Assembly: GCF_905475395.1 (NCBI RefSeq)
Contig: NC_058338.1
Coordinates: forward strand, 43,683,935 to 43,747,934
DNA length: 64,000 bases
Direction of reading: 5' to 3'
Source: Chrysoperla carnea
Lineage: Eukaryota; Arthropoda; Insecta; Neuroptera; Chrysopidae
In this document: one piece after another, positions 863 through 31,243 of the stretch
Position numbering within the stretch: the first letter of the stretch is position 1
How the letters are laid out: every line of letters starts with the position of its first letter
The notes under the pieces: generated by a model
The model's input: the letters and a program-made list of their open reading frames with translations, nothing else
What the model was told of the DNA's origin: nothing
Database searches by the model: none
Made by a program: the position numbers and the translations under genes

Positions 863-3741
863 ATGGAAAAAGTTTATACTCGTCAACAGTTGAATTTCTC
901 ACATGAAGTTAATTTGAAAGAACATTTCGAATTATTTTCTAATAAAGTTAATTTTATAAATGATTTTTCTTTAGAAGAATCCGAGCAAGATGAAGAAATT
1001 TTTAATTTAATGGGAATTAAATTGAAACAAGATACTAAAGATTTATTGAAAGATACATGCAGGTATAATTTAATATTATTGATTATTATCAAAAATAGTT
1101 TTATGAGACTTTTCATGAATGTTTACAGTTTCGAACATTTAGCAGAATCAACGTTGAAAACTATACCAAACGACAAAAAGGGCATGAAAAAACTTCATGA
1201 TTCTTCTTTGAAACATATACCATTAGAAGCCAAGTCATTAGAAACTATAAAAAATTTGGAGGCTAATGTTATAACGAAAAACCGATCGGTTAAGGAATAC
1301 ACCGACTTTTATGTTAATGGTTTGAAATACCGATCGCAAGTGGAAATTGTATGATAAATTTATGTTTAAAATTGCATAGTGAAGGCTTATCATTAGGTGT
1401 TGAAAATTTATCTATTAGTCTTAGAGTCAACGATTAGTTTATTTCATACATTTAATTACATACCTAAGCATATTGAAGTCATATTTCCCCTTCATTAGAT
1501 ATTTTTTATTATACCATATACCATGTATATGAAATATATCAAGGTATACTAAGTTTAGTCCCTGTCTGACATTATCTTTATCTTTTTTTGTTAGCATCAT
1601 TGTTTACCCACGAGGCCGCAAATTAGATGCAAATTTTATAGTATGTATTATATGGGAATATCAGTTATGAATATGTGGCTATCTAAAAGTGGATATCTTT
1701 CTTTACTTACGTGTCGTCAAAAAACAAACGATTGCGTCATCAACAATGTCCATACATGGTATTTCAATAATTAACTCAGTCAATTGTTTGTTTTCATTTG
1801 TTGGAATGGAAATTTGTTCATGTTTTTGAACACATAATATTTAAGCTAAAAAATACAATGTACTTCACTTTATTATCTTTAACGAGATAGGGTTTACTTA
1901 ATAGGGTATTCCACTATTTTTGAAAAAGTACTTCAAAATGTTGATTTTGCTAATAAAAAGCCACCAAAAATTTATTTCGGAAAAATACACACGCTTTCTT
2001 ACCAAAAACTTAAATTAAATTTTAAACTGTCAAAAACACGGGCATCCAATTTGATGACGTAATATAGGTATCACTATACGAAATAACACAAATAAGTTTG
2101 ACAAATATATTCATAGACATCTGATTATAATAAATATAAATACTTATTATCTATGTATATATTATACCCAACTATCTACACTGAACTAACTGATGGTCTA
2201 TATCTCATACCGCTATGACATCACAGCAGGGCTTACCAGCGTTTTTGGTCACGTGATATACAGTTTAAAAATTACGATTTTTAATTTTAATATTTTAAAA
2301 GAAAAATGTGCTTTTATGACTCGAAATCAGAATATTTAAGAATATTATTACATAAATTTTAACTTTTTTCAAATTTCATGATTTATTTTTGACTAACGAT
2401 AATACCCTATTATTGTTTTTAATTTTGAAGAAGTTCTTGATTAATATTAGCTAAGTAAATTGAAACTTTTATAAAATGAAGAGTTGTAAAAAATAAAATG
2501 TAGTACAATTTATTATCTGACTACTAAAAATAAATCTTAGGGCTACAAAATTTGAAAGTAATCACCGCCCCGTAGGTTTTAGCTTTGATTTTCTTGAATA
2601 AACGTTTATCTCTTCAACACCTATTGATGGCACATGTTGTATGTACTTTACATTTTAGCGTGCTCTTTATAAATTTATATGAATTTTTATATATGCATAT
2701 TTTTTTAGGATGATACAAATTTTCGTCATTTAGAAAATTTAAAAGAAAATGATGAAATTCTTTTATTTATTCGTATTTATGCACCATTTCGCTATATTCC
2801 TGGTTTTAAGACATCGTGGATACCTAGATTCAGTCATGAAATAATCGTATCAGGTTCAAATACAGTACAAGATTTTTGTAAAAAAATACTTTGCCCATCT
2901 GATGAAAATGTTTCTTATGATATCAGTGAAAATCCTGACAATTTACAACCAACGAAGGTAATCCAAACATTTGTATTAAAAAAATCCTATGCAGTTTTTT
3001 AGTCGCAGACCTGTGTAATTATAAAGAATTTATTTATTTTTTTTAAATAATAGTCCTAATATTTTATAAAAATTAATTTTGTGTTTTGGTATCTAAATAT
3101 GATGATTAATCACTAGAAACATTTATCCAATCAATTTATTCTTAGTGGACAAAAGAGTCCATTTATAAAGTACACACATATTTGAAACAAATGTAAATTT
3201 GCTTTCATAATAAAAATATAATGTAAATTTTATTTTATAGGGCAAATATAAATCCTGTTTAATTTTCATCCATGATACGTTGTATCATAACGCCAAAGAT
3301 TCGAATTATGTAGATTATTCTGAAGTGGTGATGGAATTTAGTAAAAATTTGAATTACGGTGTTGGACCTTTCAAGAAAGAGTTAATGGATAATGTTTTAT
3401 TTAAAGATCTCAAACTCAAATTAGGATATCCATATATGTATCAACATCAAGGGGACTGTGAACATTTGTTTACAATTTCTGATATAAGATTGATACATTC
3501 AAGTGATTCACTTTGTTCAGAAGATTATCCACGCTTTGCTTGTGCTTCAAATAAAATTACTCGACGGTGCATGATGTGTGGAACCAAAGAGGCTTGTTAT
3601 ATCGTACGTAATTGTGATAGAATACCAAGTGATCCAGCTTATATGTGTGAAATTTGCTTCAAATCCTATTTATATATAGACGGTAAAAAAGTTGGAAATT
3701 TCAAAGCATATGTATATTTTGAAAGTTCTTATGTATGTTAG
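863..3741 (+). CDS. SNAPC3: snRNA-activating protein complex subunit 3 (SNAPC3/SNAP50)
   Basis: This nuclear subunit of the SNAPc complex binds the proximal sequence element of snRNA genes for RNA polymerase II and III. Four exons fit by phase and consensus sites: 863-1062, 1129-1348, 2709-2957 and 3241-3741, giving 389 aa (human SNAPC3 is about 411). The last exon is diagnostic: YPYMYQHQGDCEHLF followed by a Cys-rich zinc-binding stretch (CMMCGTKEACYIV, CDRIPSDPAYMCEICF) and a GNFKAYVYF end. The start is ATG at 863 (MEKVYTRQQL); upstream the frame stays open only from a TTG. Intron 1 is 66 bp, a multiple of three with no stop, so retention would add 22 residues. Intron 2 (1349-2708) carries a dispersed repeat and a TIR element. 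The family is assigned from the C-terminal motif; the N-terminal half is weakly conserved. Confidence 0.9.
1490..1810 (-). repeat. Dispersed repeat family, copy B, in SNAPC3 intron 2
   Basis: Reverse-complement match to 40380-40985 with an internal deletion. Shared blocks are CATGTATATGAAATATAT..., GTTTACCCACGAGG, GGGAATATCAGTTATG, GTGGATATCTTTCTTTA and the end TCAATTGTTTGTTTTCA. It is the same family as 1-230 and 53425-53605. Confidence 0.65.
1900..2411. mobile_element. Putative MITE with AATAGGGTAT ends, SNAPC3 intron 2
   Basis: A 512-bp AT-rich segment with no coding capacity, bounded by AATAGGGTAT (1900-1909) and its inverse ATACCCTATT (2402-2411). The perfect terminal match is only about 10 bp, so the element call is tentative. 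It may be a non-autonomous DNA transposon. It would need other genomic copies to confirm the ends. Confidence 0.4.
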
Positions 3742-5682
3742 AATTTAAGAACTATCATTTAAATATTTAAATAAGAATGTGATATATTGTTTTTAAAAAA
3801 TAATATATATTATTTATTATTATTATATATATATTTTTTAAGGCGATTGATTACTTTTGTAAGTTAGTTAAGGAAATATCTTAAATATCTCATGTTAAAA
3901 CTAAAAATCAATATTTTTTTTAATGAAAAAGTAAATACATATTTGTTGTTGATATTGTTTTTTAATATTCCTTAATTATTAGTAATATTTTTTCCAAAAA
4001 TATAGACTTATGTTCTGTATCGCTGGTCAACGGGATTTGTAATACTTAGATACTTATTCCGTAAAATGTTATTTTCTGTGGGATTATTAAAACAGGGTGT
4101 CCTTCACTTGAAAGTCGTTATAGATGTGTCTTAAGGATCATTATTCTGGGATAATAAGGAATCACTTAAGCTACTTTCACTTAAGAAAAAGAATTAGGGC
4201 TCTGTACAAAGTGAAGGCTATAATGCGGTAGTTTTTGTTTTTAAAGTTGAGATTGCTCATTGAAGCGGGTACATTTAAAATGTCAAAATGAGTTTGAATT
4301 CATGCAGATTCTAAAAATGTACGATTCTTTACATTTCTTTTGCAATTAAAAATTTTTCGATTTTCGAAATAGAAAAATTTGAAATTTTTAGGCGGAAATA
4401 AAATTTGTTTCTGACTTAATGACAATAGCTTCTATTCTATCTTTTTTTTTGCAAAATTGGGAATAAAAACTGAAATGATTTTTCTTTATTTGTAACAAAT
4501 TATATGTCGGAAGAAAAAAAACTTTTTTTGTTTTCAGTTTAAATGACACTTCGTTAAAATCGATTTAATAAGCACAAATATAAATTATTCATTAATTTAA
4601 TTTATTCCGATACTTATTCTGATTTAATTTTGCGGTTTTACAACAATTATTTTTTATGTGGATATAATAAGGTCAATATCAATTATCTGTGATTATATTT
4701 CAATTACTTTTTTGCTATTATCCAACTAATCGTAAAGTTACCCAAGACAAGTTATAAGTAATTAGTTATCTTATATATTTAAACGAGCAATTCTTTTAAA
4801 AATATATATATTTATATATATCAACGTTCTTGGAAATGGCTTCCAACGATTTTCATGAAAATGTGTATGCAGGAATTTTTGGGGCGAAAAGTCGATCTAG
4901 CTAGGTTTTATTTTTAAAAAACGTCGTTTTATCCTTCTTTTCATGAAAAACTGAAACACACACTACAAAACATGACTCTTCCTGGCATCTATTGGTGGTA
5001 GTTAACGAAATAAAGTACATTACCGGGACATTTAACGGTTTGCAAGATGGGATATCTCTTCGTTTTTGAGTTATGATGAAAGTTTTCAGAAAAATTTTCT
5101 TTTTCCCAAAAATTAAAGGCTTAGGGTTTATCTTGAGCTTAGCCCCGTATTAAAAATTTTTCACACACTTTTGAGTTCAACTTATACCTACATTATATAC
5201 ACATATTTATTATGGAAAAAATATATATTAATATTTCTTCGATACTGCTATGCTATACTAACTTAATTAACTAATAAACTAAAATAATAAACCGACTAAA
5301 AATCCACCGACTATATTAGATTTAAGAAAATACTTAAATTATTTACTTATTTAATAAAATAATATTTCAGTTACTTAAATAGTTTCTATCTTGCTAGTCA
5401 CTACCCCGATCGTAATGAAAGCAGGGCATTTTGCATTACCATCAGAAATTTGAAACTTAAAGGCAAAATTGAGCTTATAATATAATAAGCTCAATTTTAT
5501 TAAGCTTAAGCTTAATAAGTTTTAATTTTATGTATGTAAAACTTCATGGATATTTGTACCTAACTGTTTTAAATTCTCTGTAAAAATTATTTCTGTATAA
5601 AAGCTCATAATACTATTTCTGAGAGATTAGTTTATTTCATTCTATTAAATCAGAAGTAACGTTTAAAGTATTAAACAGCAAA
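3742..5682. other. Intergenic, SNAPC3 to IR75
   Basis: No gene is seen. The stretch is AT-rich, with a partial match to the dispersed repeat family around 5030-5090 (AACGGTTTGCAAGATGGG and the 'cgtttttgagttatgatga' block). The promoter and 5' UTR of the downstream receptor must lie near the right end, but I cannot point to a core promoter. Confidence 0.5.
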
Positions 5683-8600
5683 ATGCTTAAATTTTTTCTT
5701 ATATTTGCTATTTTTATCAAAATTGCAAATGGTTTTTTCGATGTAAATTTTGTTGAAAATTATTTCCAAATGAAATCCATTAAGAGAATTACATTTTTTA
5801 CATGTTCAAATGGTAATTAAATTGTACATGGTACTTAAATTGTACACTTCTATCAATAATTCTCTCGTGAGCAATTACCTATTACCATCAATTTGTTGGG
5901 GTAGCTTTAGAAATCTGGATTAGCGCATTGAATTCAAAAGTCTCAAAAGGTAATTTTGCTCACAAGAAAATTATTGTTAAAATATATATATATTAAAATT
6001 ACTTTTTACACTTCTGTGCCTTTTTTGTAGTTTTTTAATAAATTTTTTTGCAAGCAAAAAAAAGTTGTACTACCTGCGTAATAGGTGAAAAACTACAAAT
6101 TTTGACTTATTTCAGTTTTTTACCTATATTACGCAGGTAGTACCACTTTTTTTTGGCTTGCAAAACGTAGTTTCACACTCCCCTAAGAGATCCAAATAAC
6201 ATATAAGGAACTTTATATGAACAATTTTAATATTTGTGATATTCAAAATCAGGAACAAGAACGGGAATCGAACCCACAACGTTTGGTTTACCGTATAGCA
6301 GTATAAAAGTTTGGAAAATCAATATTTGGAAGTAGATTAGTATACAGATTATGTAGGTACAACTTAATAGCTCAGAGTTCTGACCCGGTAAATTGGAAGT
6401 TGTAGGATCGATTCCCACTCGCGTGTACTTTTTTTCATATTGATGTGTATTTTTATAGTATTGATGTAAAAAATTGAACTATTCAGGTTTATTGCTTTGT
6501 AGTAGTTTGATCCTATATCTATTCATCTTAGCTCAACCTGTATGTTAATTATATAAACAATGATTAAAAATTAAATAGAAAATTGAGTTCGAAAATTTCG
6601 AAACTTAACAATAGGGTAAGGTCGGGACCCTTCGTACGGTTTTTACATTTTGTTTTTTTGCTTTGACTATTTTATTAGCAATTCAACTGATTACGCCTAG
6701 ACATAGTATATAGTATGTTGAATATATATTATGTATTTAATTTATTTTTAAATTATAAAATAAATTTTCCAAAATTTTAATGTTTGGTACTTTAAATTCA
6801 GATATTAAATATTATCGAACATTGTCTAAATATTTTATGGAACGTCAACTTCAAGTATCATTTCAAAATATGAACAAATTTAAACAATATGATTCATATT
6901 ATTTACCAAAAGTTTATAGTCTCGAAGGGATTGTAACTGACTCAACCTGCCAAGACATTAGAAATCTTATTAAACGGGTAAATACAAAATATATTCTAAA
7001 GAATGTTCAAATGAATAATAAATCATTTACATTTCGGTTAAATTTTTTCATGCTCAGGGAAAAATAATTTAGATAATCCTAGACGACCATCGTTGTAGGC
7101 ACCACACACCATTTTACTTTCAATAATTACGGGATTATTAATCACCTATTAACGAATATTGAGTCACCATGCTGTAACAAATAGAAATTTTGTGCCAGTG
7201 CCTTAAGTTCTAAATAGTTATTGTGAAAATTTAAAATTTATCCAAAAAACAATACCATTTGTTTATTTTACAAAATGACGTATTAAAATTTCCTCACTTT
7301 TCTCTAATAAATAGCAATACGTTGAAGACTTTCAATGCAAAAAGTGCTTGATTTAAAGTTTAAGTGCTTGTTGCCCAAAAATAACTACTTTTCTGTTATA
7401 TACATGCTAGAAAGATGAACAACGAAACCCCCCGGAAAATCGTAAAACACTTTTCCTGATTTTTCAGGGTTTGCGTTGTTCAAAATGAAATTTTTCGATT
7501 TTGTTAATTTGACTTTATTTCGAATCGATTGGTGAAAATCCCATATTTCTAGCATGTATAGACTAGAAAAACGATATTTTTGGGTGGTTTTTCCGCGCGC
7601 TACCTTAACAATTAAAAGTCAAACTTTAGGTTACAAAAAACTTTTCAAAGACTTTTTGAGGGACGAAAATCGTAAAAATCACGTTTTTCAAATTTTACTA
7701 ATTTTGTACTCGAAAATTGGAGGGTCCAAAGCGATTCGGTCAATATAATTTTTTGTTCAAATTAAGATGAGCATTTCTGTGGGCTGTATTATGCATTTTG
7801 TTAAAATATATCCCCTTAAGGACCCACAATAAAAATATTTAGCTAGATTATAAAATTATTAATTAGCTAGACCGGTTTCGATTGCTTTGGCAATCCTCTT
7901 CAGTAGCATTAAACCTCTTAAAATTAAAAAGTCTTAAAATTAAAAAATATTTACAAATCCGAAAAAAGAACCGCATCAATCTGAAACAAATAATAATAAA
8001 ATATTACCCTTAAAATTAAAATAAAATTATTTACCCGATTATAATAATAATAAATCTTTATGTTACACCCTCTGAAATAATGTAACTGCCTGCTTTCACC
8101 TAAAACACAATAAAATATTAAGTTTTAATCCTAAGATAGGATTATCGTTATGAAAATATCAGAAAACTAAGGGATTAAGCCTGAAAATAAAATGTAAGAT
8201 AAGAAACGTTGTAAATATAAAATAAAATAAAAAACACAGAAATAAAAATAAAAATAAAGAGAAAATTAGATTACCAACAAATTAAAAATTTTAATCCTCG
8301 GTATACCTAAAACAGAATAAATAATTAGAATTTAGAAAAACCTGCAACAAACCAAAATAAAATTTAACGAAAATAAGCAAATTACAAACAAAAATTAAAA
8401 AATAAAAATAGAATTAATTAAAGAACAATAGAATAAGTATTACCAAATGAAGTAAAATGGTGTACCTAAAACAGAAGAAATTATTAATTAGCGTACCTAA
8501 AACAGAAGAAATTATTAATTAGTGTACCTAAAACAGAAGAAATTATTAATTAGCGTACCTAAAACAGAAGAAATTATTAATTAGTGTACCTAAAACAGAA

Positions 8601-11600
8601 GAAATTATTAGTTAGTGTACCTAAAACAGAAGAAGTTATTAGTTAGTGTACCTAAAACAGAATAAAATATAAAATAAATAAAAAATGAAAGTGAGCAAAA
8701 TTATAAAAATACAAGAAAATACGTTGAAAAAATAAAAAATTTACCAAATGACAAACTGAAACAAACAAAAAATCAAATTAAGTAAAAATGATAAGCAAAA
8801 ATAAAAAATAAAAATTAAATCAAAAAATAATAATAGGAAAGATAAATAAAAAAGATGAAAAATAGCATAAAATATCGATTCTCGAGACAACACAAATGAA
8901 ACAGGTAACTAAACGAAACCCTGCCCAAATTGTGTTGTTTTTCGATCACCATTCAAATAAAACAGGTAAAAAGTGTACACCACAAGTATAATTAAGCAAT
9001 AAACTTAATCGTCACATGTACTCTAGTTAACTGTTAAAAATTTGGTGATTTTCGCTTGTCTTATATGCTTCGTTCGTTGAGGTACCTGCCCTTGATTGGT
9101 TCTTTTATTTGAATCCAATGGCTGGCCGACCTTTGTTGATTGGCTGGCATCTACACATAGGCTGTACAGGTCAGAGAATGGTACTGGACCTTTGTCGCTA
9201 TTCAAAGCGTTCTTTCCCATTCTGTTGATGTACAAACTTTCGTAGGCATCAAGTTTCGATGGAATGTTGACTAATTTTAACAACTTTATCTCACCGATCT
9301 GATGTCCCGTTTCCATGGCGTGTGATGCCACTGATGACTTTTCCTTCCTTTTATTGTTGAAATGCGCTATATGCTCTTTGTAGCGTACGCTAAGGGAACG
9401 GGCTGTTTGGCCAATATAACCTTTCGAGCAATCTGCGCAATCAACTTTATATATACCTGACTTTTTGTTGTTTGGAATACGATCCTTCGTATTACATAAC
9501 ATTGACCTCAATTTCCCTTTCGATGTATATGCCACTTGTAGGTTTGTGTTATATTTTTGCATGGCCTCCGATACTTGGCTGGTTTTTTTGCCATAAAAGG
9601 TCAATGATGTTCTTAGGACTGGTTCTTCCGTTGACAATGTTGTTGTTTCTTTAAGGGACTTCCGCCATTTCGCCTTTTTCAATAATTGGTCAATTACGTT
9701 GGTTGAATATCCGTTGAGTACCGCCACATTTTTTATGTAATCCAATTCCTTCTTATAGTTTGTTGTTGATAATGGGTATGTTGTTAACCTGTGAACAAGA
9801 AAATTAAAAGCGGCCATTTTGTGGCTCCAATGAGAAAAGGAGTCCTTTGGAATAAACCTATCTACATTTGTCGGTTTCCTGTAAATGTTGAACGCCAACT
9901 TATCGCTATCTCTGGATATTTCGAGATCCAGAAATGGTAATTTTTCATCCTGCTCCTCTTCAACGGTGAACTTGATGCTGGGTTCCGCTTTATTCAAAAA
10001 TTCCAAAAAATCGTGTACGCTCGTTTTCTTAGTATCTATAATTGTAAATATGTCATCTACATAACGATACCAATGTTGTGGGAAATACTCCGCTGCTTGT
10101 TTTAAATTCCTTTCCAATCTTGACATGAATATGTTTGCTAAAAAAGGGCTCAATGGGTTGCCCATACTGGTTCCATGTACCTGCTTATAAAATTTTTCAT
10201 TAAATTGGAAATAAGTTTGTTCCATGCATAATCTGGTTAATTGGAGATATTCTCCTCTTTCCAGTTCAGGCACATTGTTCTCCGTCAACCATTCCTCCAG
10301 GTGGTCCAACGCTTTATTAATTGGCACACTAGGAAAAAGGGCCGTTACGTCAAAAGATACAAACTTATCCCCATCTACTAAATTTACACCCTTAAGTTTT
10401 TCTATGAGTTCCATAGAATTCAAGACACTATCACCTGTCGGCTTGTTGAATTTATTAAATTCTGACACAAGCCATTTCGCGATCTTGTATGTTGGTGAGT
10501 TGATCCCGGATACAATGGGCCGCATACCATCTCCTTCCTTGTGAATTTTCGGCAATCCGTACAATCTAGAAGTTAGTGGGTTTGATGATTGTAACTTCAA
10601 ACGATCTCTGCTTCCAATCAGCACCTGACATTGTTTGATCACCTCTTTTACCTCTTTGATATTCTTTTGGAGTGGATCCTTCTCGACACGTTCATATGGT
10701 CCTTCCCGTAATAGTTTTTCCATCCGTCGAATGTAATCTTCTTTATCTAAAACAACAACAGCATTACCTTTATCTGCCTTGGTGATTGTGACTCCTTTTT
10801 CCGTAAGCGATTTTACAGCTTTGTGATGAGTTATATGATGGTTGATTTCTTTTTCCTCTGGTCGTAGGATGGGTAAAACGTTTCTCCTGATCTGGTGCTT
10901 TACACTTTCTGGAGCCCTTTTGATGGTTGTTTCTACGTCCGCGATGATGTCAATGATCGGTGTTTTTAGGGGTTTCAAAGAAAAATTGAGACCTTTATTT
11001 AATAATTGCAGTTCCTCCGTTGAAAGTTCCTTTGTTGATATGTTTTTAACTATATTCAGTTGATTATGAATGGCTGTTTGTCTTGGTTTATTATCATTCC
11101 TCCTGTCATTGCTGGTCATTTGTTTTGCCCTGGGTTGTTGAACTGAAATGAGCGATAACAATTTCTTGTTGTGTCGATCATATGTCTGCTCCATTTTGTG
11201 GTCAATGATTTCGTTGATTTTCCGGTACCATAATAGCCAATTCTGGAAATCCTTCTCGTTAAGATCTTTGGTCAGCATTAAGTGTAGTTTGTATTTTTCC
11301 GTTTCAATATTGCTGCGTGAACAGTAAAGTTGACTTTTTTCCAAGACTAACCATTTATATTTCGCGAACTCAACTGCTTTTCGAGCATTCGGACTGTTGG
11401 AGCTAGAATTAATACATAAAAATTTTGGAAATACCTTTGCTTTTAAACAATTGTTTAAAAACGATATATCCGCTGAAAGAGAACGAAATTTTAATGATAA
11501 TTTAAAAAACTTACATAACTGCTCCTTTGGTCTGGGCACCAAATTATTATTCAAATTAAGATGAGCATTTCTGTGGGCTGTATTATGCATTTTGTTAAAA

Positions 11601-14600
11601 TATATCCCCTTAAGGACCCACAATAAAAATATTTAGCTAGATTATAAAATTATTAATTAGCTAGACCGGTTTCGATTGCTTTGGCAATCCTCTTCAGTAG
11701 CATTAAACCTCTTAAAATTAAAAAGTCTTAAAATTAAAAAATATTTACAAATCCGAAAAAAGAAAAGAACCGCATCAATCTGAAACAAATAATAATAAAA
11801 TATTACCCTTAAAATTAAAATAAAATTATTTACCCGATTATAATAATAATAAATCTTTATGTTACACCCTCTGAAATAATGTAACTGCCTGCTTTCACCT
11901 AAAACACAATAAAATATTAAGTTTTAATCCTAAGATAGGATTATCGTTATGAAAATATCAGAAAACTAAGGGATTAAGCCTGAAAATAAAATGTAAGATA
12001 AGAAACGTTGTAAATATAAAATAAAATAAAAAACACAGAAATAAAAATAAAAATAAAGAGAAAATTAGATTACCAACAAATTAAAAATTTTAATCCTCGG
12101 TATACCTAAAACAGAATAAATAATTAGAATTTAGAAAAACCTGCAACAAACCAAAATAAAATTTAACGAAAATAAGCAAATTACAAACAAAAATTAAAAA
12201 ATAAAAATAGAATTAATTAAAGAACAATAGAATAAGTATTACCAAATGAAGTAAAATGGTGTACCTAAAACAGAAGAAATTATTAATTAGCGTACCTAAA
12301 ACAGAAGAAATTATTAATTAGTGTACCTAAAACAGAAGAAATTATTAATTAGCGTACCTAAAACAGAAGAAATTATTAATTAGTGTACCTAAAACAGAAG
12401 AAATTATTAGTTAGTGTACCTAAAACAGAAGAAGTTATTAGTTAGTGTACCTAAAACAGAATAAAATATAAAATAAATAAAAAATGAAAGTGAGCAAAAT
12501 TATAAAAATACAAGAAAATACGTTGAAAAAATAAAAAATTTACCAAATGACAAACTGAAACAAACAAAAAATCAAATTAAGTAAAAATGATAAGCAAAAA
12601 TAAAAAATAAAAATTAAATCAAAAAATAATAATAGGAAAGATAAATAAAAAAGATGAAAAATAGCATAAAATATCGATTCTCGAGACAACACAAATGAAA
12701 CAGGTAACTAAACGAAACCCTGCCCAAATTGTGTTGTTTTTCGATCACCATTCAAATAAAACAGGTAAAAAGTGTACACCACAAGTATAATTAAGCAATA
12801 AACTTAATCGTCACATGTACTCTAGTTAACTGTTAAAAATTTGGTGATTTTCGCTTGTCTTATATGCTTCGTTCGTTGAGGTACCTGCCCTTGATTGGTT
12901 CTTTTATTTGAATCCAATGGCTGGCCGACCTTTGTTGATTGGCTGGCATCTACACATAGGCTGTACAGGTCAGAGAATGGTACTGGACCTTTGTCGCTAT
13001 TCAAAGCGTTCTTTCCCATTCTGTTGATGTACAAACTTTCGTAGGCATCAAGTTTCGATGGAATGTTGACTAATTTTAACAACTTTATCTCACCGATCTG
13101 ATGTCCCGTTTCCATGGCGTGTGATGCCACTGATGACTTTTCCTTCCTTTTATTGTTGAAATGCGCTATATGCTCTTTGTAGCGTACGCTAAGGGAACGG
13201 GCTGTTTGGCCAATATAACCTTTCGAGCAATCTGCGCAATCAACTTTATATATACCTGACTTTTTGTTGTTTGGAATACGATCCTTCGTATTACATAACA
13301 TTGACCTCAATTTCCCTTTCGATGTATATGCCACTTGTAGGTTTGTGTTATATTTTTGCATGGCCTCCGATACTTGGCTGGTTTTTTTTGCCATAAAAGG
13401 TCAATGATGTTCTTAGGACTGGTTCTTCCGTTGACAATGTTGTTGTTTCTTTAAGGGACTTCCGCCATTTCGCCTTTTTCAATAATTGGTCAATTACGTT
13501 GGTTGAATATCCGTTGAGTACCGCCACATTTTTTATGTAATCCAATTCCTTCTTATAGTTTGTTGTTGATAATGGGTATGTTGTTAACCTGTGAACAAGA
13601 AAATTAAAAGCGGCCATTTTGTGGCTCCAATGAGAAAAGGAGTCCTTTGGAATAAACCTATCTACATTTGTCGGTTTCCTGTAAATGTTGAACGCCAACT
13701 TATCGCTATCTCTGGATATTTCGAGATCCAGAAATGGTAATTTTTCATCCTGCTCCTCTTCAACGGTGAACTTGATGCTGGGTTCCGCTTTATTCAAAAA
13801 TTCCAAAAAATCGTGTACGCTCGTTTTCTTAGTATCTATAATTGTAAATATGTCATCTACATAACGATACCAATGTTGTGGGAAATACTCCGCTGCTTGT
13901 TTTAAATTCCTTTCCAATCTTGACATGAATATGTTTGCTAAAAAAGGGCTCAATGGGTTGCCCATACTGGTTCCATGTACCTGCTTATAAAATTTTTCAT
14001 TAAATTGGAAATAAGTTTGTTCCATGCATAATCTGGTTAATTGGAGATATTCTCCTCTTTCCAGTTCAGGCACATTGTTCTCCGTCAACCATTCCTCCAG
14101 GTGGTCCAACGCTTTATTAATTGGCACACTAGGAAAAAGGGCCGTTACGTCAAAAGATACAAACTTATCCCCATCTACTAAATTTACACCCTTAAGTTTT
14201 TCTATGAGTTCCATAGAATTCAAGACACTATCACCTGTCGGCTTGTTGAATTTATTAAATTCTGACACAAGCCATTTCGCGATCTTGTATGTTGGTGAGT
14301 TGATCCCGGATACAATGGGCCGCATACCATCTCCTTCCTTGTGAATTTTCGGCAATCCGTACAATCTAGAAGTTAGTGGGTTTGATGATTGTAACTTCAA
14401 ACGATCTCTGCTTCCAATCAGCACCTGACATTGTTTGATCACCTCTTTTACCTCTTTGATATTCTTTTGGAGTGGATCCTTCTCGACACGTTCATATGGT
14501 CCTTCCCGTAATAGTTTTTCCATCCGTCGAATGTAATCTTCTTTATCTAAAACAACAACAGCATTACCTTTATCTGCCTTGGTGATTGTGACTCCTTTTT

Positions 14601-17600
14601 CCGTAAGCGATTTTACAGCTTTGTGATGAGTTATATGATGGTTGATTTCTTTTTCCTCTGGTCGTAGGATGGGTAAAACGTTTCTCCTGATCTGGTGCTT
14701 TACACTTTCTGGAGCCCTTTTGATGGTTGTTTCTACGTCCGCGATGATGTCAATGATCGGTGTTTTTAGGGGTTTCAAAGAAAAATTGAGACCTTTATTT
14801 AATAATTGCAGTTCCTCCGTTGAAAGTTCCTTTGTTGATATGTTTTTAACTATATTCAGTTGATTATGAATGGCTGTTTGTCTTGGTTTATTATCATTCC
14901 TCCTGTCATTGCTGGTCATTTGTTTTGCCCTGGGTTGTTGAACTGAAATGAGCGATAACAATTTCTTGTTGTGTCGATCATATGTCTGCTCCATTTTGTG
15001 GTCAATGATTTCGTTGATTTTCCGGGATATATTTTATTCGGGATTTCGGGGATATATTTTAACAAAATGCATAATACAGCCCACAGAAATGCTCATCTTA
15101 ATTTGAATAATAATTTGGTGCCCAGACCAAAGGAGCAGTTATGTAAGTTTTTTAAATTATCATTAAAATTTCGTTCTCTTTCAGCGGATATATCGTTTTT
15201 AAACAATTGTTTAAAAGCAAAGGTATTTCCAAAATTTTTATGTATTAATTCTAGCTCCAACAGTCCGAATGCTCGAAAAGCAGTTGAGTTCGCGAAATAT
15301 AAATGGTTAGTCTTGGAAAAAAGTCAACTTTACTGTTCACGCAGCAATATTGAAACGGAAAAATACAAACTACACTTAATGCTGACCAAAGATCTTAACG
15401 AGAAGGATTTCCAGAATTGGCTATTATGGTACCGGAAAATCAACGAAATCATTGACCACAAAATGGAGCAGACATATGATCGACACAACAAGAAATTGTT
15501 ATCGCTCATTTCAGTTCAACAACCCAGGGCAAAACAAATGACCAGCAATGACAGGAGGAATGATAATAAACCAAGACAAACAGCCATTCATAATCAACTG
15601 AATATAGTTAAAAACATATCAACAAAGGAACTTTCAACGGAGGAACTGCAATTATTAAATAAAGGTCTCAATTTTTCTTTGAAACCCCTAAAAACACCGA
15701 TCATTGACATCATCGCGGACGTAGAAACAACCATCAAAAGGGCTCCAGAAAGTGTAAAGCACCAGATCAGGAGAAACGTTTTACCCATCCTACGACCAGA
15801 GGAAAAAGAAATCAACCATCATATAACTCATCACAAAGCTGTAAAATCGCTTACGGAAAAAGGAGTCACAATCACCAAGGCAGATAAAGGTAATGCTGTT
15901 GTTGTTTTAGATAAAGAAGATTACATTCGACGGATGGAAAAACTATTACGGGAAGGACCATATGAACGTGTCGAGAAGGATCCACTCCAAAAGAATATCA
16001 AAGAGGTAAAAGAGGTGATCAAACAATGTCAGGTGCTGATTGGAAGCAGAGATCGTTTGAAGTTACAATCATCAAACCCACTAACTTCTAGATTGTACGG
16101 ATTGCCGAAAATTCACAAGGAAGGAGATGGTATGCGGCCCATTGTATCCGGGATCAACTCACCAACATACAAGATCGCGAAATGGCTTGTGTCAGAATTT
16201 AATAAATTCAACAAGCCGACAGGTGATAGTGTCTTGAATTCTATGGAACTCATAGAAAAACTTAAGGGTGTAAATTTAGTAGATGGGGATAAGTTTGTAT
16301 CTTTTGACGTAACGGCCCTTTTTCCTAGTGTGCCAATTAATAAAGCGTTGGACCACCTGGAGGAATGGTTGACGGAGAACAATGTGCCTGAACTGGAAAG
16401 AGGAGAATATCTCCAATTAACCAGATTATGCATGGAACAAACTTATTTCCAATTTAATGAAAAATTTTATAAGCAGGTACATGGAACCAGTATGGGCAAC
16501 CCATTGAGCCCTTTTTTAGCAAACATATTCATGTCAAGATTGGAAAGGAATTTAAAACAAGCAGCGGAGTATTTCCCACAACATTGGTATCGTTATGTAG
16601 ATGACATATTTACAATTATAGATACTAAGAAAACGAGCGTACACGATTTTTTGGAATTTTTGAATAAAGCGGAACCCAGCATCAAGTTCACCGTTGAAGA
16701 GGAGCAGGATGAAAAATTACCATTTCTGGATCTCGAAATATCCAGAGATAGCGATAAGTTGGCGTTCAACATTTACAGGAAACCGACAAATGTAGATAGG
16801 TTTATTCCAAAGGACTCCTTTTCTCATTGGAGCCACAAAATGGCCGCTTTTAATTTTCTTGTTCACAGGTTAACAACATACCCATTATCAACAACAAACT
16901 ATAAGAAGGAATTGGATTACATAAAAAATGTGGCGGTACTCAACGGATATTCAACCAACGTAATTGACCAATTATTGAAAAAGGCGAAATGGCGGAAGTC
17001 CCTTAAAGAAACAACAACATTGTCAACGGAAGAACCAGTCCTAAGAACATCATTGACCTTTTATGGCAAAAAAACCAGCCAAGTATCGGAGGCCATGCAA
17101 AAATATAACACAAACCTACAAGTGGCATATACATCGAAAGGGAAATTGAGGTCAATGTTATGTAATACGAAGGATCGTATTCCAAACAACAAAAAGTCAG
17201 GTATATATAAAGTTGATTGCGCAGATTGCTCGAAAGGTTATATTGGCCAAACAGCCCGTTCCCTTAGCGTACGCTACAAAGAGCATATAGCGCATTTCAA
17301 CAATAAAAGGAAGGAAAAGTCATCAGTGGCATCACACGCCATGGAAACGGGACATCAGATCGGTGAGATAAAGTTGTTAAAATTAGTCAACATTCCATCG
17401 AAACTTGATGCCTACGAAAGTTTGTACATCAACAGAATGGGAAAGAACGCTTTGAATAGCGACAAAGGTCCAGTACCATTCTCTGACCTGTACAGCCTAT
17501 GTGTAGATGCCAGCCAATCAACAAAGGTCGGCCAGCCATTGGATTCAAATAAAAGAACCAATCAAGGGCAGGTACCTCAACGAACGAAGCATATAAGACA

Positions 17601-20600
17601 AGCGAAAATCACCAAATTTTTAACAGTTAACTAGAGTACATGTGACGATTAAGTTTATTGCTTAATTATACTTGTGGTGTACACTTTTTACCTGTTTTAT
17701 TTGAATGGTGATCGAAAAACAACACAATTTGGGCAGGGTTTCGTTTAGTTACCTGTTTCATTTGTGTTGTCTCGAGAATCGATATTTTATGCTATTTTTC
17801 ATCTTTTTTATTTATCTTTCCTATTATTATTTTTTGATTTAATTTTTATTTTTTATTTTTGCTTATCATTTTTACTTAATTTGATTTTTTGTTTGTTTCA
17901 GTTTGTCATTTGGTAAATTTTTTATTTTTTCAACGTATTTTCTTGTATTTTTATAATTTTGCTCACTTTCATTTTTTATTTATTTTATATTTTATTCTGT
18001 TTTAGGTACACTAACTAATAACTTCTTCTGTTTTAGGTACACTAACTAATAATTTCTTCTGTTTTAGGTACACTAATTAATAATTTCTTCTGTTTTAGGT
18101 ACGCTAATTAATAATTTCTTCTGTTTTAGGTACACTAATTAATAATTTCTTCTGTTTTAGGTACGCTAATTAATAATTTCTTCTGTTTTAGGTACACCAT
18201 TTTACTTCATTTGGTAATACTTATTCTATTGTTCTTTAATTAATTCTATTTTTATTTTTTAATTTTTGTTTGTAATTTGCTTATTTTCGTTAAATTTTAT
18301 TTTGGTTTGTTGCAGGTTTTTCTAAATTCTAATTATTTATTCTGTTTTAGGTATACCGAGGATTAAAATTTTTAATTTGTTGGTAATCTAATTTTCTCTT
18401 TATTTTTATTTTTATTTCTGTGTTTTTTATTTTATTTTATATTTACAACGTTTCTTATCTTACATTTTATTTTCAGGCTTAATCCCTTAGTTTTCTGATA
18501 TTTTCATAACGATAATCCTATCTTAGGATTAAAACTTAATATTTTATTGTGTTTTAGGTGAAAGCAGGCAGTTACATTATTTCAGAGGGTGTAACATAAA
18601 GATTTATTATTATTATAATCGGGTAAATAATTTTATTTTAATTTTAAGGGTAATATTTTATTATTATTTGTTTCAGATTGATGCGGTTCTTTTTTCGGAT
18701 TTGTAAATATTTTTTAATTTTAAGACTTTTTAATTTTAAGAGGTTTAATGCTACTGAAGAGGATTGCCAAAGCAATCGAAACCGGTCTAGCTAATTAATA
18801 ATTTTATAATCTAGCTAAATATTTTTATTGTGGGTCCTTAAGGGGATATATTTTAACAAAATGCATAATACAGCCCACAGAAATGCTCATCTTAATTTGA
18901 ATAATAATTTGGTGCCCAGACCAAAGGAGCAGTTATGTAAGTTTTTTAAATTATCATTAAAATTTCGTTCTCTTTCAGCGGATATATCGTTTTTAAACAA
19001 TTGTTTAAAAGCAAAGGTATTTCCAAAATTTTTATGTATTAATTCTAGCTCCAACAGTCCGAATGCTCGAAAAGCAGTTGAGTTCGCGAAATATAAATGG
19101 TTAGTCTTGGAAAAAAGTCAACTTTACTGTTCACGCAGCAATATTGAAACGGAAAAATACAAACTACACTTAATGCTGACCAAAGATCTTAACGAGAAGG
19201 ATTTCCAGAATTGGCTATTATGGTACCGGAAAATCAACGAAATCATTGACCACAAAATGGAGCAGACATATGATCGACACAACAAGAAATTGTTATCGCT
19301 CATTTCAGTTCAACAACCCAGGGCAAAACAAATGACCAGCAATGACAGGAGGAATGATAATAAACCAAGACAAACAGCCATTCATAATCAACTGAATATA
19401 GTTAAAAACATATCAACAAAGGAACTTTCAACGGAGGAACTGCAATTATTAAATAAAGGTCTCAATTTTTCTTTGAAACCCCTAAAAACACCGATCATTG
19501 ACATCATCGCGGACGTAGAAACAACCATCAAAAGGGCTCCAGAAAGTGTAAAGCACCAGATCAGGAGAAACGTTTTACCCATCCTACGACCAGAGGAAAA
19601 AGAAATCAACCATCATATAACTCATCACAAAGCTGTAAAATCGCTTACGGAAAAAGGAGTCACAATCACCAAGGCAGATAAAGGTAATGCTGTTGTTGTT
19701 TTAGATAAAGAAGATTACATTCGACGGATGGAAAAACTATTACGGGAAGGACCATATGAACGTGTCGAGAAGGATCCACTCCAAAAGAATATCAAAGAGG
19801 TAAAAGAGGTGATCAAACAATGTCAGGTGCTGATTGGAAGCAGAGATCGTTTGAAGTTACAATCATCAAACCCACTAACTTCTAGATTGTACGGATTGCC
19901 GAAAATTCACAAGGAAGGAGATGGTATGCGGCCCATTGTATCCGGGATCAACTCACCAACATACAAGATCGCGAAATGGCTTGTGTCAGAATTTAATAAA
20001 TTCAACAAGCCGACAGGTGATAGTGTCTTGAATTCTATGGAACTCATAGAAAAACTTAAGGGTGTAAATTTAGTAGATGGGGATAAGTTTGTATCTTTTG
20101 ACGTAACGGCCCTTTTTCCTAGTGTGCCAATTAATAAAGCGTTGGACCACCTGGAGGAATGGTTGACGGAGAACAATGTGCCTGAACTGGAAAGAGGAGA
20201 ATATCTCCAATTAACCAGATTATGCATGGAACAAACTTATTTCCAATTTAATGAAAAATTTTATAAGCAGGTACATGGAACCAGTATGGGCAACCCATTG
20301 AGCCCTTTTTTAGCAAACATATTCATGTCAAGATTGGAAAGGAATTTAAAACAAGCAGCGGAGTATTTCCCACAACATTGGTATCGTTATGTAGATGACA
20401 TATTTACAATTATAGATACTAAGAAAACGAGCGTACACGATTTTTTGGAATTTTTGAATAAAGCGGAACCCAGCATCAAGTTCACCGTTGAAGAGGAGCA
20501 GGATGAAAAATTACCATTTCTGGATCTCGAAATATCCAGAGATAGCGATAAGTTGGCGTTCAACATTTACAGGAAACCGACAAATGTAGATAGGTTTATT

Positions 20601-23600
20601 CCAAAGGACTCCTTTTCTCATTGGAGCCACAAAATGGCCGCTTTTAATTTTCTTGTTCACAGGTTAACAACATACCCATTATCAACAACAAACTATAAGA
20701 AGGAATTGGATTACATAAAAAATGTGGCGGTACTCAACGGATATTCAACCAACGTAATTGACCAATTATTGAAAAAGGCGAAATGGCGGAAGTCCCTTAA
20801 AGAAACAACAACATTGTCAACGGAAGAACCAGTCCTAAGAACATCATTGACCTTTTATGGCAAAAAAACCAGCCAAGTATCGGAGGCCATGCAAAAATAT
20901 AACACAAACCTACAAGTGGCATATACATCGAAAGGGAAATTGAGGTCAATGTTATGTAATACGAAGGATCGTATTCCAAACAACAAAAAGTCAGGTATAT
21001 ATAAAGTTGATTGCGCAGATTGCTCGAAAGGTTATATTGGCCAAACAGCCCGTTCCCTTAGCGTACGCTACAAAGAGCATATAGCGCATTTCAACAATAA
21101 AAGGAAGGAAAAGTCATCAGTGGCATCACACGCCATGGAAACGGGACATCAGATCGGTGAGATAAAGTTGTTAAAATTAGTCAACATTCCATCGAAACTT
21201 GATGCCTACGAAAGTTTGTACATCAACAGAATGGGAAAGAACGCTTTGAATAGCGACAAAGGTCCAGTACCATTCTCTGACCTGTACAGCCTATGTGTAG
21301 ATGCCAGCCAATCAACAAAGGTCGGCCAGCCATTGGATTCAAATAAAAGAACCAATCAAGGGCAGGTACCTCAACGAACGAAGCATATAAGACAAGCGAA
21401 AATCACCAAATTTTTAACAGTTAACTAGAGTACATGTGACGATTAAGTTTATTGCTTAATTATACTTGTGGTGTACACTTTTTACCTGTTTTATTTGAAT
21501 GGTGATCGAAAAACAACACAATTTGGGCAGGGTTTCGTTTAGTTACCTGTTTCATTTGTGTTGTCTCGAGAATCGATATTTTATGCTATTTTTCATCTTT
21601 TTTATTTATCTTTCCTATTATTATTTTTTGATTTAATTTTTATTTTTTATTTTTGCTTATCATTTTTACTTAATTTGATTTTTTGTTTGTTTCAGTTTGT
21701 CATTTGGTAAATTTTTTATTTTTTCAACGTATTTTCTTGTATTTTTATAATTTTGCTCACTTTCATTTTTTATTTATTTTATATTTTATTCTGTTTTAGG
21801 TACACTAACTAATAACTTCTTCTGTTTTAGGTACACTAACTAATAATTTCTTCTGTTTTAGGTACACTAATTAATAATTTCTTCTGTTTTAGGTACGCTA
21901 ATTAATAATTTCTTCTGTTTTAGGTACACTAATTAATAATTTCTTCTGTTTTAGGTACGCTAATTAATAATTTCTTCTGTTTTAGGTACACCATTTTACT
22001 TCATTTGGTAATACTTATTCTATTGTTCTTTAATTAATTCTATTTTTATTTTTTAATTTTTGTTTGTAATTTGCTTATTTTCGTTAAATTTTATTTTGGT
22101 TTGTTGCAGGTTTTTCTAAATTCTAATTATTTATTCTGTTTTAGGTATACCGAGGATTAAAATTTTTAATTTGTTGGTAATCTAATTTTCTCTTTATTTT
22201 TATTTTTATTTCTGTGTTTTTTATTTTATTTTATATTTACAACGTTTCTTATCTTACATTTTATTTTCAGGCTTAATCCCTTAGTTTTCTGATATTTTCA
22301 TAACGATAATCCTATCTTAGGATTAAAACTTAATATTTTATTGTGTTTTAGGTGAAAGCAGGCAGTTACATTATTTCAGAGGGTGTAACATAAAGATTTA
22401 TTATTATTATAATCGGGTAAATAATTTTATTTTAATTTTAAGGGTAATATTTTATTATTATTTGTTTCAGATTGATGCGGTTCTTTTTTCGGATTTGTAA
22501 ATATTTTTTAATTTTAAGACTTTTTAATTTTAAGAGGTTTAATGCTACTGAAGAGGATTGCCAAAGCAATCGAAACCGGTCTAGCTAATTAATAATTTTA
22601 TAATCTAGCTAAATATTTTTATTGTGGGTCCTTAAGGGGATATATTTTAACAAAATGCATAATTTTTTGTAAAAAAAATTAGTTTAAACAATATCCTACC
22701 GAGTTTGTAAACTGTTTTGAGGCACCAGATTCCTAAATTTTGTCAATGTAATTTTTTGAGTAAAAATAAAAATTTTCACGTTACTCATAGGCATTTTTAA
22801 TTCGATTGAGTTAGCTTATTTCTCTAAATGTTTGAAAAAATTTAACCAAAGTGTAAGAGCTAATCAAGGTGCAGAGACTATTGTGAATAAATAAAAATTG
22901 GCTATTTTTCATACAATTTTAGGCTGGAATTCCTCACCAATTTACTGATCTACAATATTGGATTTTTATTCAAGATTATAAGCTTTATCCTAATAACGAT
23001 ATCACAGTCATAAACTCAACTGATTGTAAAGAACAGGTTTTAAAACATAACATTTTGAAATTAACTAGGGAAAAATTGCATAATATTTATTGGGGTTTTA
23101 CAGCTGTCCGCACTGGGATATGAAATACTATCAAATGTGGATGCTTTTCCAAATAGTCAAGTAATTTGGGCACAAACTCCTGTTTGCCAAGATTCATTGT
23201 CAAATAACCAATACGCTTTATTCGATATATATCGCATTTCACCTACAACCGAAATTCGGTCATTATTTATTGGCTGGTATCCGGGAAAAGGGATACATGA
23301 ACTTTTTTCTATTTTGCCTCCAGTTGGAGAACGCCGGCGTAATTTCTATGGCACATTACTTCGTGGTGGATATGTGGTAAGTAATTTTTATAATTTGAAT
23401 ATGAATATATCGGTATATGCATTCACTTTTTGCCCTAGCATTAGAGAAATGTCTGCCAGTATTGTGCAACGCTTATGCAGTCGTTATGGAAGTTATTTGG
23501 CAAGCGGCAGAATTTTTTTTTTCAATTTTTTACATAAAAGTCTAAGTTTAATTTAATAATATCTGCGGCTTTCTACCGTACATTTTTTCAGCCTGTTTTT

Positions 23601-28822: not shown

Positions 28823-30586
28823 AGATTAGAAAAATTTTCTCTCGCACGACATAGTCGTTATTTTTGCTTAAATTCTGAGTACGATATAATATAATTTATT
28901 TTAAGACGTAGGTAGATATCTATTTCTTGAGGCACTCATGGCACAAAACCACTTTTCGATTACTAATAAGAAAAAAGGTTTTAATGATGGCTTTATTAAT
29001 ATATTAACGGATGCTAATAAAAAAAAAATTACGCATGGTTTTCTTTCTCACTCCTAATCATTACAGAAAGCTTGATAAACTATAATCAAATAATAAATTC
29101 TGCACTGGTAATAAAAATTTAGTTCTCACCTAAATTTCTAATTCATTTAATGTATCTGATTTTGAAGAAATAAAACTGCTAATTTACTTTACTAAGTAGA
29201 AGTTTTATTTCTTCAAAATCTTAACTATGGAATTCCACAAAGTAAATAGTTCTCTGCAATTAATAATGTATATGAGTATATTTTTAATAAACAAAGATGT
29301 ATATGAAATAAATCATATTTTTATTACATTCTGTGTTTTTGTTTGTTATAAATTCGTTTCATGGGCCCCAGAACAAAATTTATGTGGTTTATTAGAGATG
29401 TCTGATACACAAACTGAGCTAGGGAGTTGAAAACCACATAGGACATAGGGTGGGTAGATGAACTTTTTCGAGATTAAACTCTCTAGCACTTCTACCCTCT
29501 TGTTATACTCAAAAATCATATTTATACTCGGTTTTAAGACCTCCATTGCTCAGTCCTGGATTTAGACTTAGGCACGTGAGACAGTTGCCTAGGGCGGCAC
29601 AATTTTAAAAGCGAAATAATTCAGGAGCAATCCTAATTTTTTCATAAAAATGTATCTATTGAATAATCTAATGATTGAATTTACCTACTTTTTAATTTAC
29701 CGCAATGTTAATTTTTTAATAGATCAATAGGCTTTTATCAATATTAGTCTTCAATAAATACTATAGATTATTAAAAAAAAAAAATGCAAAATTCAAATTA
29801 AAACTTGCCTTTTTGTCAAATAGAATATTGAGGTCCAAACTTATTTTTCTTTTTCCGATTTAGAATATGGAAAAACGTATTTCCTGAAAATTTTTAGCAA
29901 AAATTTTATAAAACAACCATTGGAAAAACTAGGAAAATTAATAGTTTTTCCAAGTTCAAATGTGTTTTTTCGTTTCGTAGTTCAACTATTTTTTAAATTA
30001 AAAAATTCAATTATTTTCTATTTTATAGTCAAAAATAGGTGGAGCTCCTTTTCTGCATTTTTTTTGTCTTTTGATGTATTGTAAGCAATTCATAGCTGGA
30101 AAATAATATTTCTGAATCACCTGTTTTTGTAATAGGTCTATGGAAGAGATAGGACTGAAGGTCTGTATTTTAGAAGTCTTTGTTATACTTCAAAGAGTAT
30201 ATGACAGAGGAGAATCAGAAATGTAATTGTACGTGACATCTGGAGTGTGTGGCGATTTGCTATTAATTTTTCCAGTCTTTGTGGGGCGACTATTAAATTT
30301 GACTACTTTGCAGGAGCGACTTTTAACTGTTAAGTTTGAAACCTTACTCAGTGGAGGCGCTGAAACTCGTATACTACGATTTTACATTATACCTCTTATA
30401 GGCTTCCCCTCTACCCTATACTCTTTGCTCTAGTTATAATATCTTACCGGTTCTGTCACTGTCACTGACACTCTGTCAGTGCTCAGTGAAACTTAAATTC
30501 AGTGAATGACCTTTTGATTGCTTGTTTATGTATTCTTGTTGATTGTGTTTATAAAAGTTTTAAAAATTAGAGAAACGAAAAAAAAA
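28823..30586. other. Intergenic, IR75 to zinc-finger gene
   Basis: No gene is seen. It holds the perfect hairpin at 29158-29220 and AT-rich unique-looking DNA. Just before the zinc-finger gene, 30450-30495 is rich in CACTGAC/GTCAGTG motifs that can pair with each other. Confidence 0.5.
29158..29220. repeat. Perfect 20-bp inverted repeat
   Basis: GATTTTGAAGAAATAAAACT at 29158-29177 is exactly inverted at 29201-29220, with a 23-base spacer. It is about 340 bp past the IR75 stop. It could be a tiny foldback element or a hairpin in the receptor's 3' UTR. Confidence 0.75.
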
Positions 30587-31243
30587 ATGCCTAAATATAA
30601 TTTACGGAAACGTAACACAGAAAGCCTTACAATACTTCCAGAAGAAATACAAATAGAACCACAATATCCTTTTGATTTGGTAATCAAAGAAGAAATACCA
30701 GATTATGAAGAAAATGTTTACGATAATCAAATTGCTTACAATGAATACTACACACTAGAAGATATTAAACAGGAAATTGAAAATGATACTAAAAACATAC
30801 ATCGTTGTCAAATATGTAATAAACAATTTAAATATCGAACATCCTTAATTAGACACAGGCATAGTCATAGTGAACAGCAGAAAGTTTATGAATGTGAATT
30901 ATGCAATAAACAGTATACACGTAAAGAAGCGTTAGTTCTTCATAACTCTGCACACCATAGTAAAAATCCATCACGATCATTTCAATGTGATATGTGTGAT
31001 AAAACATTTGTATTGAAACGTTACTTACATTACCACAGAAAAACTCATTTTAATGATCGAAAATTTGAGTGTGGTATTTGCACCAAGAGATTTTTACACC
31101 GTTGGCATCTACTTCGTCATAATTTACAACATACCGGTGAAAAACCTTTTAAATGTGATGTTTGTAATAAAACTTTTACTCGGAGTACTGGAGTAACCAG
31201 ACATAAAAAAAATACATCCTGCCAATTGGAAGAAAGCATTTAG
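30587..31243 (+). CDS. C2H2 zinc-finger protein, five fingers
   Basis: Single-exon 218-aa protein, probably a nuclear DNA-binding factor. Fingers begin at C74, C103, C134, C162 and C190 with standard spacing. A TGEKPFKC linker joins fingers four and five. The fifth ends with Cys 212 instead of the second His, making it CCHC. Residues 1-70 are acidic (IKEEIPDYEENVYD, IKQEIEND) after a short basic start (KYNLRKRN); no ZAD or BTB domain is seen. The start chosen is ATG at 30587, after a run of A; the frame is open further up from a TTG only, and those residues look like 5' UTR. Poly(A)-type AATAAA sequence follows around 31660. Orthology is not recognised. Confidence 0.85.
   Translation: MPKYNLRKRNTESLTILPEEIQIEPQYPFDLVIKEEIPDYEENVYDNQIAYNEYYTLEDIKQEIENDTKNIHRCQICNKQFKYRTSLIRHRHSHSEQQKVYECELCNKQYTRKEALVLHNSAHHSKNPSRSFQCDMCDKTFVLKRYLHYHRKTHFNDRKFECGICTKRFLHRWHLLRHNLQHTGEKPFKCDVCNKTFTRSTGVTRHKKNTSCQLEESI

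Follow-up and report, generated by a model that had tools for sequence, protein, structure and literature searches.

How four copies of one retroelement come to lie in a single insertion, as two tandem pairs pointing away from one another, is the question raised by a 14.9-kb block in a 64,000-nucleotide stretch of the Chrysoperla carnea genome (the window, G000:C2:43683935-43747934, in a surveyed genome of 559 Mb and 337 contigs; coordinates are window positions, and unit numbering starts at GGGGATATATTTTAAC, 15048 on the plus strand). The block belongs to a young family of Penelope-like elements (PLEs) of the GIY-YIG type, and we attribute it, with a probability of about 0.8, to two-ended target-primed reverse transcription, in which both ends of a break would prime copying of element RNA. 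The inserted DNA records the event: each break end appears to have served, the two start sites being shared out between them in a fixed way. The array is informative on PLE integration because it is one case among many insertions governed by a simple two-ended rule.

The insert consists of two near-perfect inverted arms, arranged 5'-to-5' and bracketed by one 12-bp duplication (Table 1). The PLE unit is 3794 bp long in the window; units R1 and R2 of the right arm differ at 0 of 3794 positions, and the full-length L1 of the left arm matches both, while its neighbour L2 begins at unit position 385 and is without the first 384 bp. The sole other differences of L2 are a +1 slip in a T run, which shifts the frame and splits the open reading frame (ORF) into 548 and 190 amino acids, and a +5 slip (TTCTT) absent from every other match to this site among the loci fetched from the genome. 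Unit boundaries within the arms are seamless, the centre is a 22-nt filler that partly repeats the unit start GGGATATATTTTA, and the outer ends are unequal, the left arm running 60 nt into a third unit and the right arm 28 nt. The duplicated 12-mer, ATAATTTTTTGT, was found at just two places in the window; as a random control, at least 12 exact bases were common to 15 of 20000 random pairs of 24-bp window stretches. An initial annotation had described a symmetrical head-to-head array of four element bodies bounded by 12-bp direct repeats; the four bodies and the repeats are real, the symmetry fails at L2, and its coordinates for the left repeat were one base too high.

Related insertions were sampled with a 45-nt end motif, which occurs at 201 places with at most 3 mismatches (internal unit boundaries counted) and at 0 in a reversed control. 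Sixty-nine loci (L009-L077) were fetched by place: 20 stretches around the top end matches, 14 around close motif places, 11 completing the exact long-end places on contig C1, 12 short stretches at long-end places on C2 and C3, and 12 motif places without a listed long motif. Head-to-head pairs were scored in 53 of the 69, making 54 with the window, and the arm end table was compiled by hand. The 16 unscored loci are one-armed with a duplication (L043, L055, L072, L077), showed no other end in the fetched stretch (L026, L045, L047, L052, L053, L056, L065, L069, L073, of which L052 and L053 are near-identical), or are decayed or complex (L061, L071, L075).

In all 54 scored pairs the two outer ends were of different kinds, a 'Long' end at +60 to +75 (mode 63) being paired with a 'Short' end at +15 to +34 (mode 24), and the two sites lie about 39 nt apart; L061 is likewise Long/Short by eye. 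The complete set of exact long-end places on C1 (23 places, 21 loci) holds 15 scored pairs, all Long/Short, together with the one-armed L043 and five loci in which no second end was found (L026, L045, L047, L052, L053). A search pattern that stops at +23, and so favours neither end type, was also applied: among the first 100 of its 160 places, those that were listed, 22 close and properly oriented pairs were recognized by eye, the L032 group being excluded, and all of the 21 sequenced were Long/Short, an outcome with a chance of 2 to the minus 21 if ends chose sites independently and equally. One-armed insertions with a duplication occur in both types, Long in L043 and L055 and Short in L072 and L077. 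At L032 (G000:C1:121241300-121243000) a Long/Short pair stands beside an inverted duplication that contains flanking sequence, either biology or an assembly fold; the apparent second, Long/Long, pair there was omitted as an inverted duplication, since the flank is inverted too. Reach toward the 5' end differed from pair to pair: the Short arm extended further, with a margin above 20 nt, in 11 of 54, the Long arm in 9, and the two agreed within 20 nt in 34, counts that rule out a 'trailing enzyme' rule under which the Short arm would always be longer.

The element ORF encodes 866 amino acids from a TTG codon or 855 from ATG. Its product matches the Pfam reverse transcriptase (RT) domain RVT_1 at residues 349-531 (E=3e-14) and GIY-YIG at residues 711-794 (E=2.1e-4); the latter match, at 22.0 bits against a curated cut-off of 22.6, covers profile positions 2-75 of 78 and is accepted in context as the endonuclease. 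A sequence search of solved structures gave two weak matches only, both to reverse transcriptases, one named antiviral Drt2. Tandem units (more than one per arm in the window, L009, L010 and L011), the tail that distinguishes Long from Short ends, short duplications at AT-rich sites and the RT/GIY-YIG ORF together point to an endonuclease-containing PLE, in agreement with the Penelope identity proposed at the outset.

From the inserted DNA we infer the following order of events. The endonuclease would cut the two strands at staggered positions, so that each side of the break carries a 3' overhang of about 12 nt. Both 3'-OH ends would prime reverse transcription near the 3' end of the element RNA: the Long site (about +63) would serve one of them, and the Short site (about +24), where CA or CAT microhomology is frequent, the other. 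The two cDNAs would grow in the direction of the RNA 5' end and in many cases halt at the same point, most likely on one RNA read twice; their 3' ends would then be joined by short, often palindromic microhomology or by templated filler, much as in alternative end joining, and fill-in of the overhangs would yield the single 12-bp duplication. In the window, a template spanning about two units would give the double tandem. A PLE protein has been observed in vitro to cut and extend both strands, with two adjacent start sites bounding a 'tail' (available excerpt of PMC11167929).

The inner ends of the two arms coincide in about half the pairs: they lie at most 10 nt apart in 31 of 54, a number that 0 of 20000 shuffles reach (mean after shuffling 5.4). 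Where at least one inner end falls before unit position 3690 (n=27), 7 pairs agree within 10 nt against 1.4 after shuffling (0 of 20000 as high), and among the 26 pairs joined without overlap 15 do so (shuffled mean 1.8, 0 of 20000). Matching 5' stops occur at unrelated-looking positions, such as 574/577, 2505/2505 and 2675/2674. Private variants, defined as bases found in no other sampled locus and scored over unit 3211-3794 in 20 pairs, were common to both arms at 28 sites in 13 of the 20 loci (the window supplies 7 of the 28) and confined to one arm at 5. Because the arms so often stop together, one RNA read twice is the most likely source, and both arms were probably read from one RNA; arm identity alone was dropped as proof of this, several loci being near-identical to each other. 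Recurrent 5' ends were seen at unit 2573-2581 (L014, L017, L018, L023, L025, L035) and 2667-2677 (L021, L022, L024, L027, L034, L050), at or after the ORF stop; they may reflect 5' ends of the RNA, places where the RT stops, or a non-autonomous short form.

Four sampled loci carry more than one unit per arm: the window, with 1.9 and 2.0 units as assembled, L009 (1.4 and 1.4), L010 (1.4 in the Short arm) and L011 (1.4 in the Long arm). In the window each arm crosses a seamless unit boundary, which bears out the earlier proposal of a multi-unit template. This template may have been a linear tandem RNA of identical units, a circle, or two RNAs bridged by a jump through the 63-nt redundancy, all of which fit the tandem; the precise start of R1 at GGGG favours an RNA whose 5' end lies at that point. 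That the template was a hammerhead-processed circular monomer RNA, read for more than one lap, is a tentative refinement of two-ended priming and compatible with it. Units agree closely within an arm (0/3794 in the right arm of the window; 0/1489 and 1/1548 in L009; one internal 1-nt indel in 1461 in L010) while unit length varies among loci (3794, 3785, 3734 and 3775), and ends at a predicted ribozyme cut occur in the family, all of which suits a circle. The filler, however, restarts at the same GGGG at which R1 begins, as if at an RNA 5' end, L2 differs from L1 by its two slips, and the units of L011 differ at 8 of 1640 positions within the arm (its arms differ at 9 of 2119); moreover, the result would look alike if a young source had identical units or if copying had jumped end to end across the redundancy.

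The predicted cut lies in a motif at unit 3697-3752 that we take to be hammerhead-like, after the minimal type I form, from the core CUGANGA...GAAA...UH; hammerheads have reportedly been described in PLEs in a 2014 paper. Read by eye, it has a stem I of 4+5 bp, a stem II of 6 bp and a stem III of 2 bp, and its core is present in 50 of 51 arms. The cut, predicted between GTC and TAGC (unit 3740/3741), was noted before inner ends at other loci were mapped. Among 49 inner ends falling in unit 3730-3800, 16 are at 3741, in nine loci, a count in which the Short inner end of L033 was set by hand and L040 is ambiguous; the L040 end was discounted as an alignment effect of a local hairpin, and with ends or jumps at 3741 in L043, L061 and L075 there are eleven loci without it. 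Seven of the eleven lack palindromic overlap (L033, L043, L057, L059, L061, L063, L075). The L043 end is exact to 2 nt, its duplication starting with the same TA; L075 passes from unit 2455 directly to 3741, as if synthesis had jumped on reaching the end of an RNA; and L036 and L065 end at 3740. As a control, joins through the palindrome TAGCTA at 3765 were counted in 3 places (one without a TAGCTA centre) against 5 at 3741, and since joins at this second TAGCTA exist, palindromic joins alone are weak evidence for a ribozyme cut. A second cluster of inner ends, at 3769-3774, coincides with the base of a predicted hairpin (3741-3770), as would be expected if the enzyme sometimes stalls there. 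Several points tell against a ribozyme: there is one extra G before stem II, Rfam gave no match (E<=1 on 7000-23500, gathering cut-offs on the whole window), free folding shows no hammerhead (z 0.43), and Frangieh et al. 2024 (PMC11167929) found no reads at the ribozyme site for the Anolis element PAc. The ends at 3741 in the genome are indirect evidence for possible in vivo cutting of template RNA by the hammerhead, the ribozyme itself being putative. We regard as possible though unlikely a fuller picture in which a PLE protein dimer would hold one RNA at two adjacent start sites, one per side of the break, and copy that RNA twice, with the second enzyme displacing the first cDNA, hammerhead self-cleavage fixing the 5' end of the RNA in a large class of insertions and laps of circularised monomers giving the double tandem.

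Two-ended priming could also have used two separate RNAs, one per break end, which we consider possible though unlikely. Two RNAs would agree with the end rule provided that the protomers of a dimer are each fixed to one site, and would account for the very unequal arms of L010 and L011; they would not be expected to give coinciding 5' stops at random-looking positions, or private variants common to both arms. A number of observations weigh against two-ended priming on one RNA as set out above. The arms of L010 and L011 differ by about 3.4 kb in reach, which is unexpected if one RNA was read twice, and 5 of the 20 pairs have a zero-difference neighbour at another locus; identical arms could also reflect gene conversion, or two RNAs made from a single source copy, and palindromic joins alone can make inner ends coincide (hence the subset of 26 pairs). 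In vitro, start sites were not seen to differ between the strands (excerpt of PMC11167929), which leaves the strict alternation unexplained. Picking the loci by end motif under-represents old copies, and any pair whose second end is unusual would land among the 16 of 69 unscored; in L026 a single arm was seen within 9.9 kb, and no duplication was detected.

The joins are in keeping with two like 3' ends having been brought together. By eye, fillers repeat nearby arm sequence in the window, L013, L014 and L022, and other joins overlap through palindromes such as TAGCTA, GTTAAC and AAATATTT; both would fit microhomology joining. A script detected duplications of 11-16 bp in 42 of 54 pairs (mode 12); the remaining 12 comprise 6 with a repeat of 6-9 bp and 6 with none by script, in 3 of which (L012, L031, L034) a duplication is visible. 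The 39 duplications of 11-13 bp are AT-rich and never have G as first or last base; the base adjoining the Short arm is A in 19, C in 14 and T in 6, and that adjoining the Long arm T in 28, A in 9 and C in 2. Fourteen of the 39 begin with CA, identical to element +23/+24, a count that is partly built in as the script takes the longest exact repeat. The window target is a dispersed AT-rich repeat (7640-7757 and 22671-22760). A search with the joined flanks listed 45 matches, 2 of them the locus itself and 43 others, some being pieces of one copy; two paralogues without the insert, L078 and L079, span the join with two and one gap positions, respectively, the query join being one base too long. 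Their 12-mer region is diverged and the comparison is one of paralogues, not alleles; because they cross the join almost ungapped, the pre-insertion site looked uninterrupted. The initial annotation's single integration with one target duplication is supported. At L033 (G000:C1:124009170-124010640) a further insert, by eye like a hAT transposon and with an apparent 8-bp duplication TATAGCTA, lies in the exact centre of a PLE pair ending at 3741.

Self-priming, in which one cDNA or antisense RNA would snap back and be copied into mirror arms, has been proposed for rotifer Penelope elements from palindromic junctions (excerpt of PMC3846280). Here it is improbable, although the arms are identical or nearly so, many end at one point, some joins hold palindromes and that of L019 is a tight hairpin with a 2-nt loop. 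A foldback should leave its second outer end at an arbitrary position or in the flank, yet in 54 of 54 pairs this end lies at the second site about 39 nt away. Further, in eight single-unit loci the Short arm reaches further 5' (L015, L018, L021, L023, L041, L066, L067, L070) and the tail is in the Long arm only, each arm thus having sequence absent from the other, which means that neither was copied from the other there; three of the eight are less firm, the inner end lying in or at the 31-bp repeats in L018 and L023 and the difference being just 21 nt in L070. The same two observations disfavour template switching onto a second strand, which had initially been offered as an alternative, and make it most likely that synthesis of both arms began at the target, on RNA. 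An assembly artefact, or a later inverted duplication of a single insertion, is very improbable: near-perfect palindromes are typical of chimeric reads and L032 does have an inverted duplication including flank, but the inverted repeat in the window ends at the element ends, the flanks differ outside a 12-bp duplication that brackets the whole, and the same plan and end rule recur at 53 other loci on several contigs.

Table 1. Features of the head-to-head PLE array, in window positions.
Feature	Position	Strand	Remarks
Target-site duplication, left copy ATAATTTTTTGT	7745-7756		12 bp
Long tail, first 60 nt of third unit, left outer end	7756-7815	-	Long start site; 7756 common to duplication
Unit L1, 3794 bp	7816-11609	-	Identical to R1 and R2
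L1 ORF, RT + GIY-YIG	9023-11623	-	866 aa from TTG, 855 aa from ATG
Unit L2, 5'-truncated at 385, +1 and +5 slips	11610-15025	-	ORF frameshift at about 13388
Filler at head-to-head junction, 22 nt	15026-15047		Partly repeats unit start GGGATATATTTTA
Unit R1, full length	15048-18841	+	5' end exactly GGGG, unit position 1
R1 ORF, 887 aa as listed	14971-17634	+	Frame enters from upstream of unit; element ATG at about 15067
Unit R2, full length	18842-22635	+	Identical to R1
R2 ORF	18828-21428	+	866 aa from TTG
Short tail, first 28 nt of third unit, right outer end	22636-22663	+	Short start site; last 5 nt common to duplication
Target-site duplication, right copy ATAATTTTTTGT	22659-22670		12 bp
31-bp tandem repeat, 6.8 copies, 3' part of R1	17987-18197	+	
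31-bp tandem repeat, further units	21781-21991, 12259-12469, 8460-8670		
Hammerhead-like motif in R1, unit 3697-3752	18744-18799	+	By eye; predicted cut 18787/18788
Hammerhead-like motif, further units	22538-22593 (+), 7858-7913 (-), 11652-11707 (-)		

Elsewhere in the genome, tandem satellites with a unit of about 225 bp derive from a piece of PLE ORF (query about 1659-1883, 80-82% identity) at G000:C3:87883700-87892388 and G000:C2:5087293-5093862, and related PLE pieces lie 20-165 kb from the ends of contigs C1, C2, C3, C4 and C6. Pfam matches in the rest of the window mark pieces of host genes for a C2H2 zinc-finger protein (30518-31243), a kinase-like protein (43251-43868, below cut-off), an FtsJ-like methyltransferase (51721-52812) and a TCP-1/cpn60 chaperonin (56131-57000), and an 82-bp unit occurs as two tandem copies, 95% alike, at 33713-33875.

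The founding endonuclease-containing PLE is Penelope of Drosophila virilis, which has pseudo-long terminal repeats (pLTRs), a tail and inverted partners. In twin priming of L1, the 3' ends on either side of the target likewise prime on element RNA, and microhomology joins the cDNAs; there, the second of the two primings occurs at an internal position and the cDNAs represent different regions, whereas both arms here begin close to the RNA 3' end and copy one and the same region. Head-to-head PLEs, tails and two in vitro start sites are already published, and the D. virilis element is mentioned in the available excerpt of PMC12910113. The Penelope families of the rotifer Adineta vaga, as excerpted from PMC3846280 (2013), resemble the present family in their head-to-head inverted pLTRs, partial tandems, short target-site duplications and junction palindromes, and have a 31-bp tail on one of the inverted pLTRs; the tail is termed optional in that account, whereas here it stands at exactly one end of each of the 54 scored pairs, and the self-priming proposed there is, in its simple form, contradicted at several loci here. 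The one-of-each rule, co-terminal arms and hammerhead-cut ends are not described in the available excerpts of PMC11167929, PMC3846280, PMC12910113 and PMC7229834, and the novelty of the end rule, the co-terminal arms and the ends at the ribozyme site is provisional. Closest in organization is PAc, the Poseidon element of Anolis carolinensis, which in the excerpted part of PMC11167929 likewise has an RT and GIY-YIG ORF, tandem units with pLTRs, a hammerhead motif, cutting and extension of both strands, and two adjacent internal start sites that bound a tail of 30-40 nt. PAc showed no difference between strands in start site in vitro and no ribozyme-cut reads in that excerpt, whereas in the present family every scored insertion has one end at each of the two sites, and the predicted cut is where some arms end; both claims, two-ended use and ribozyme cutting, are testable with this published in vitro system.

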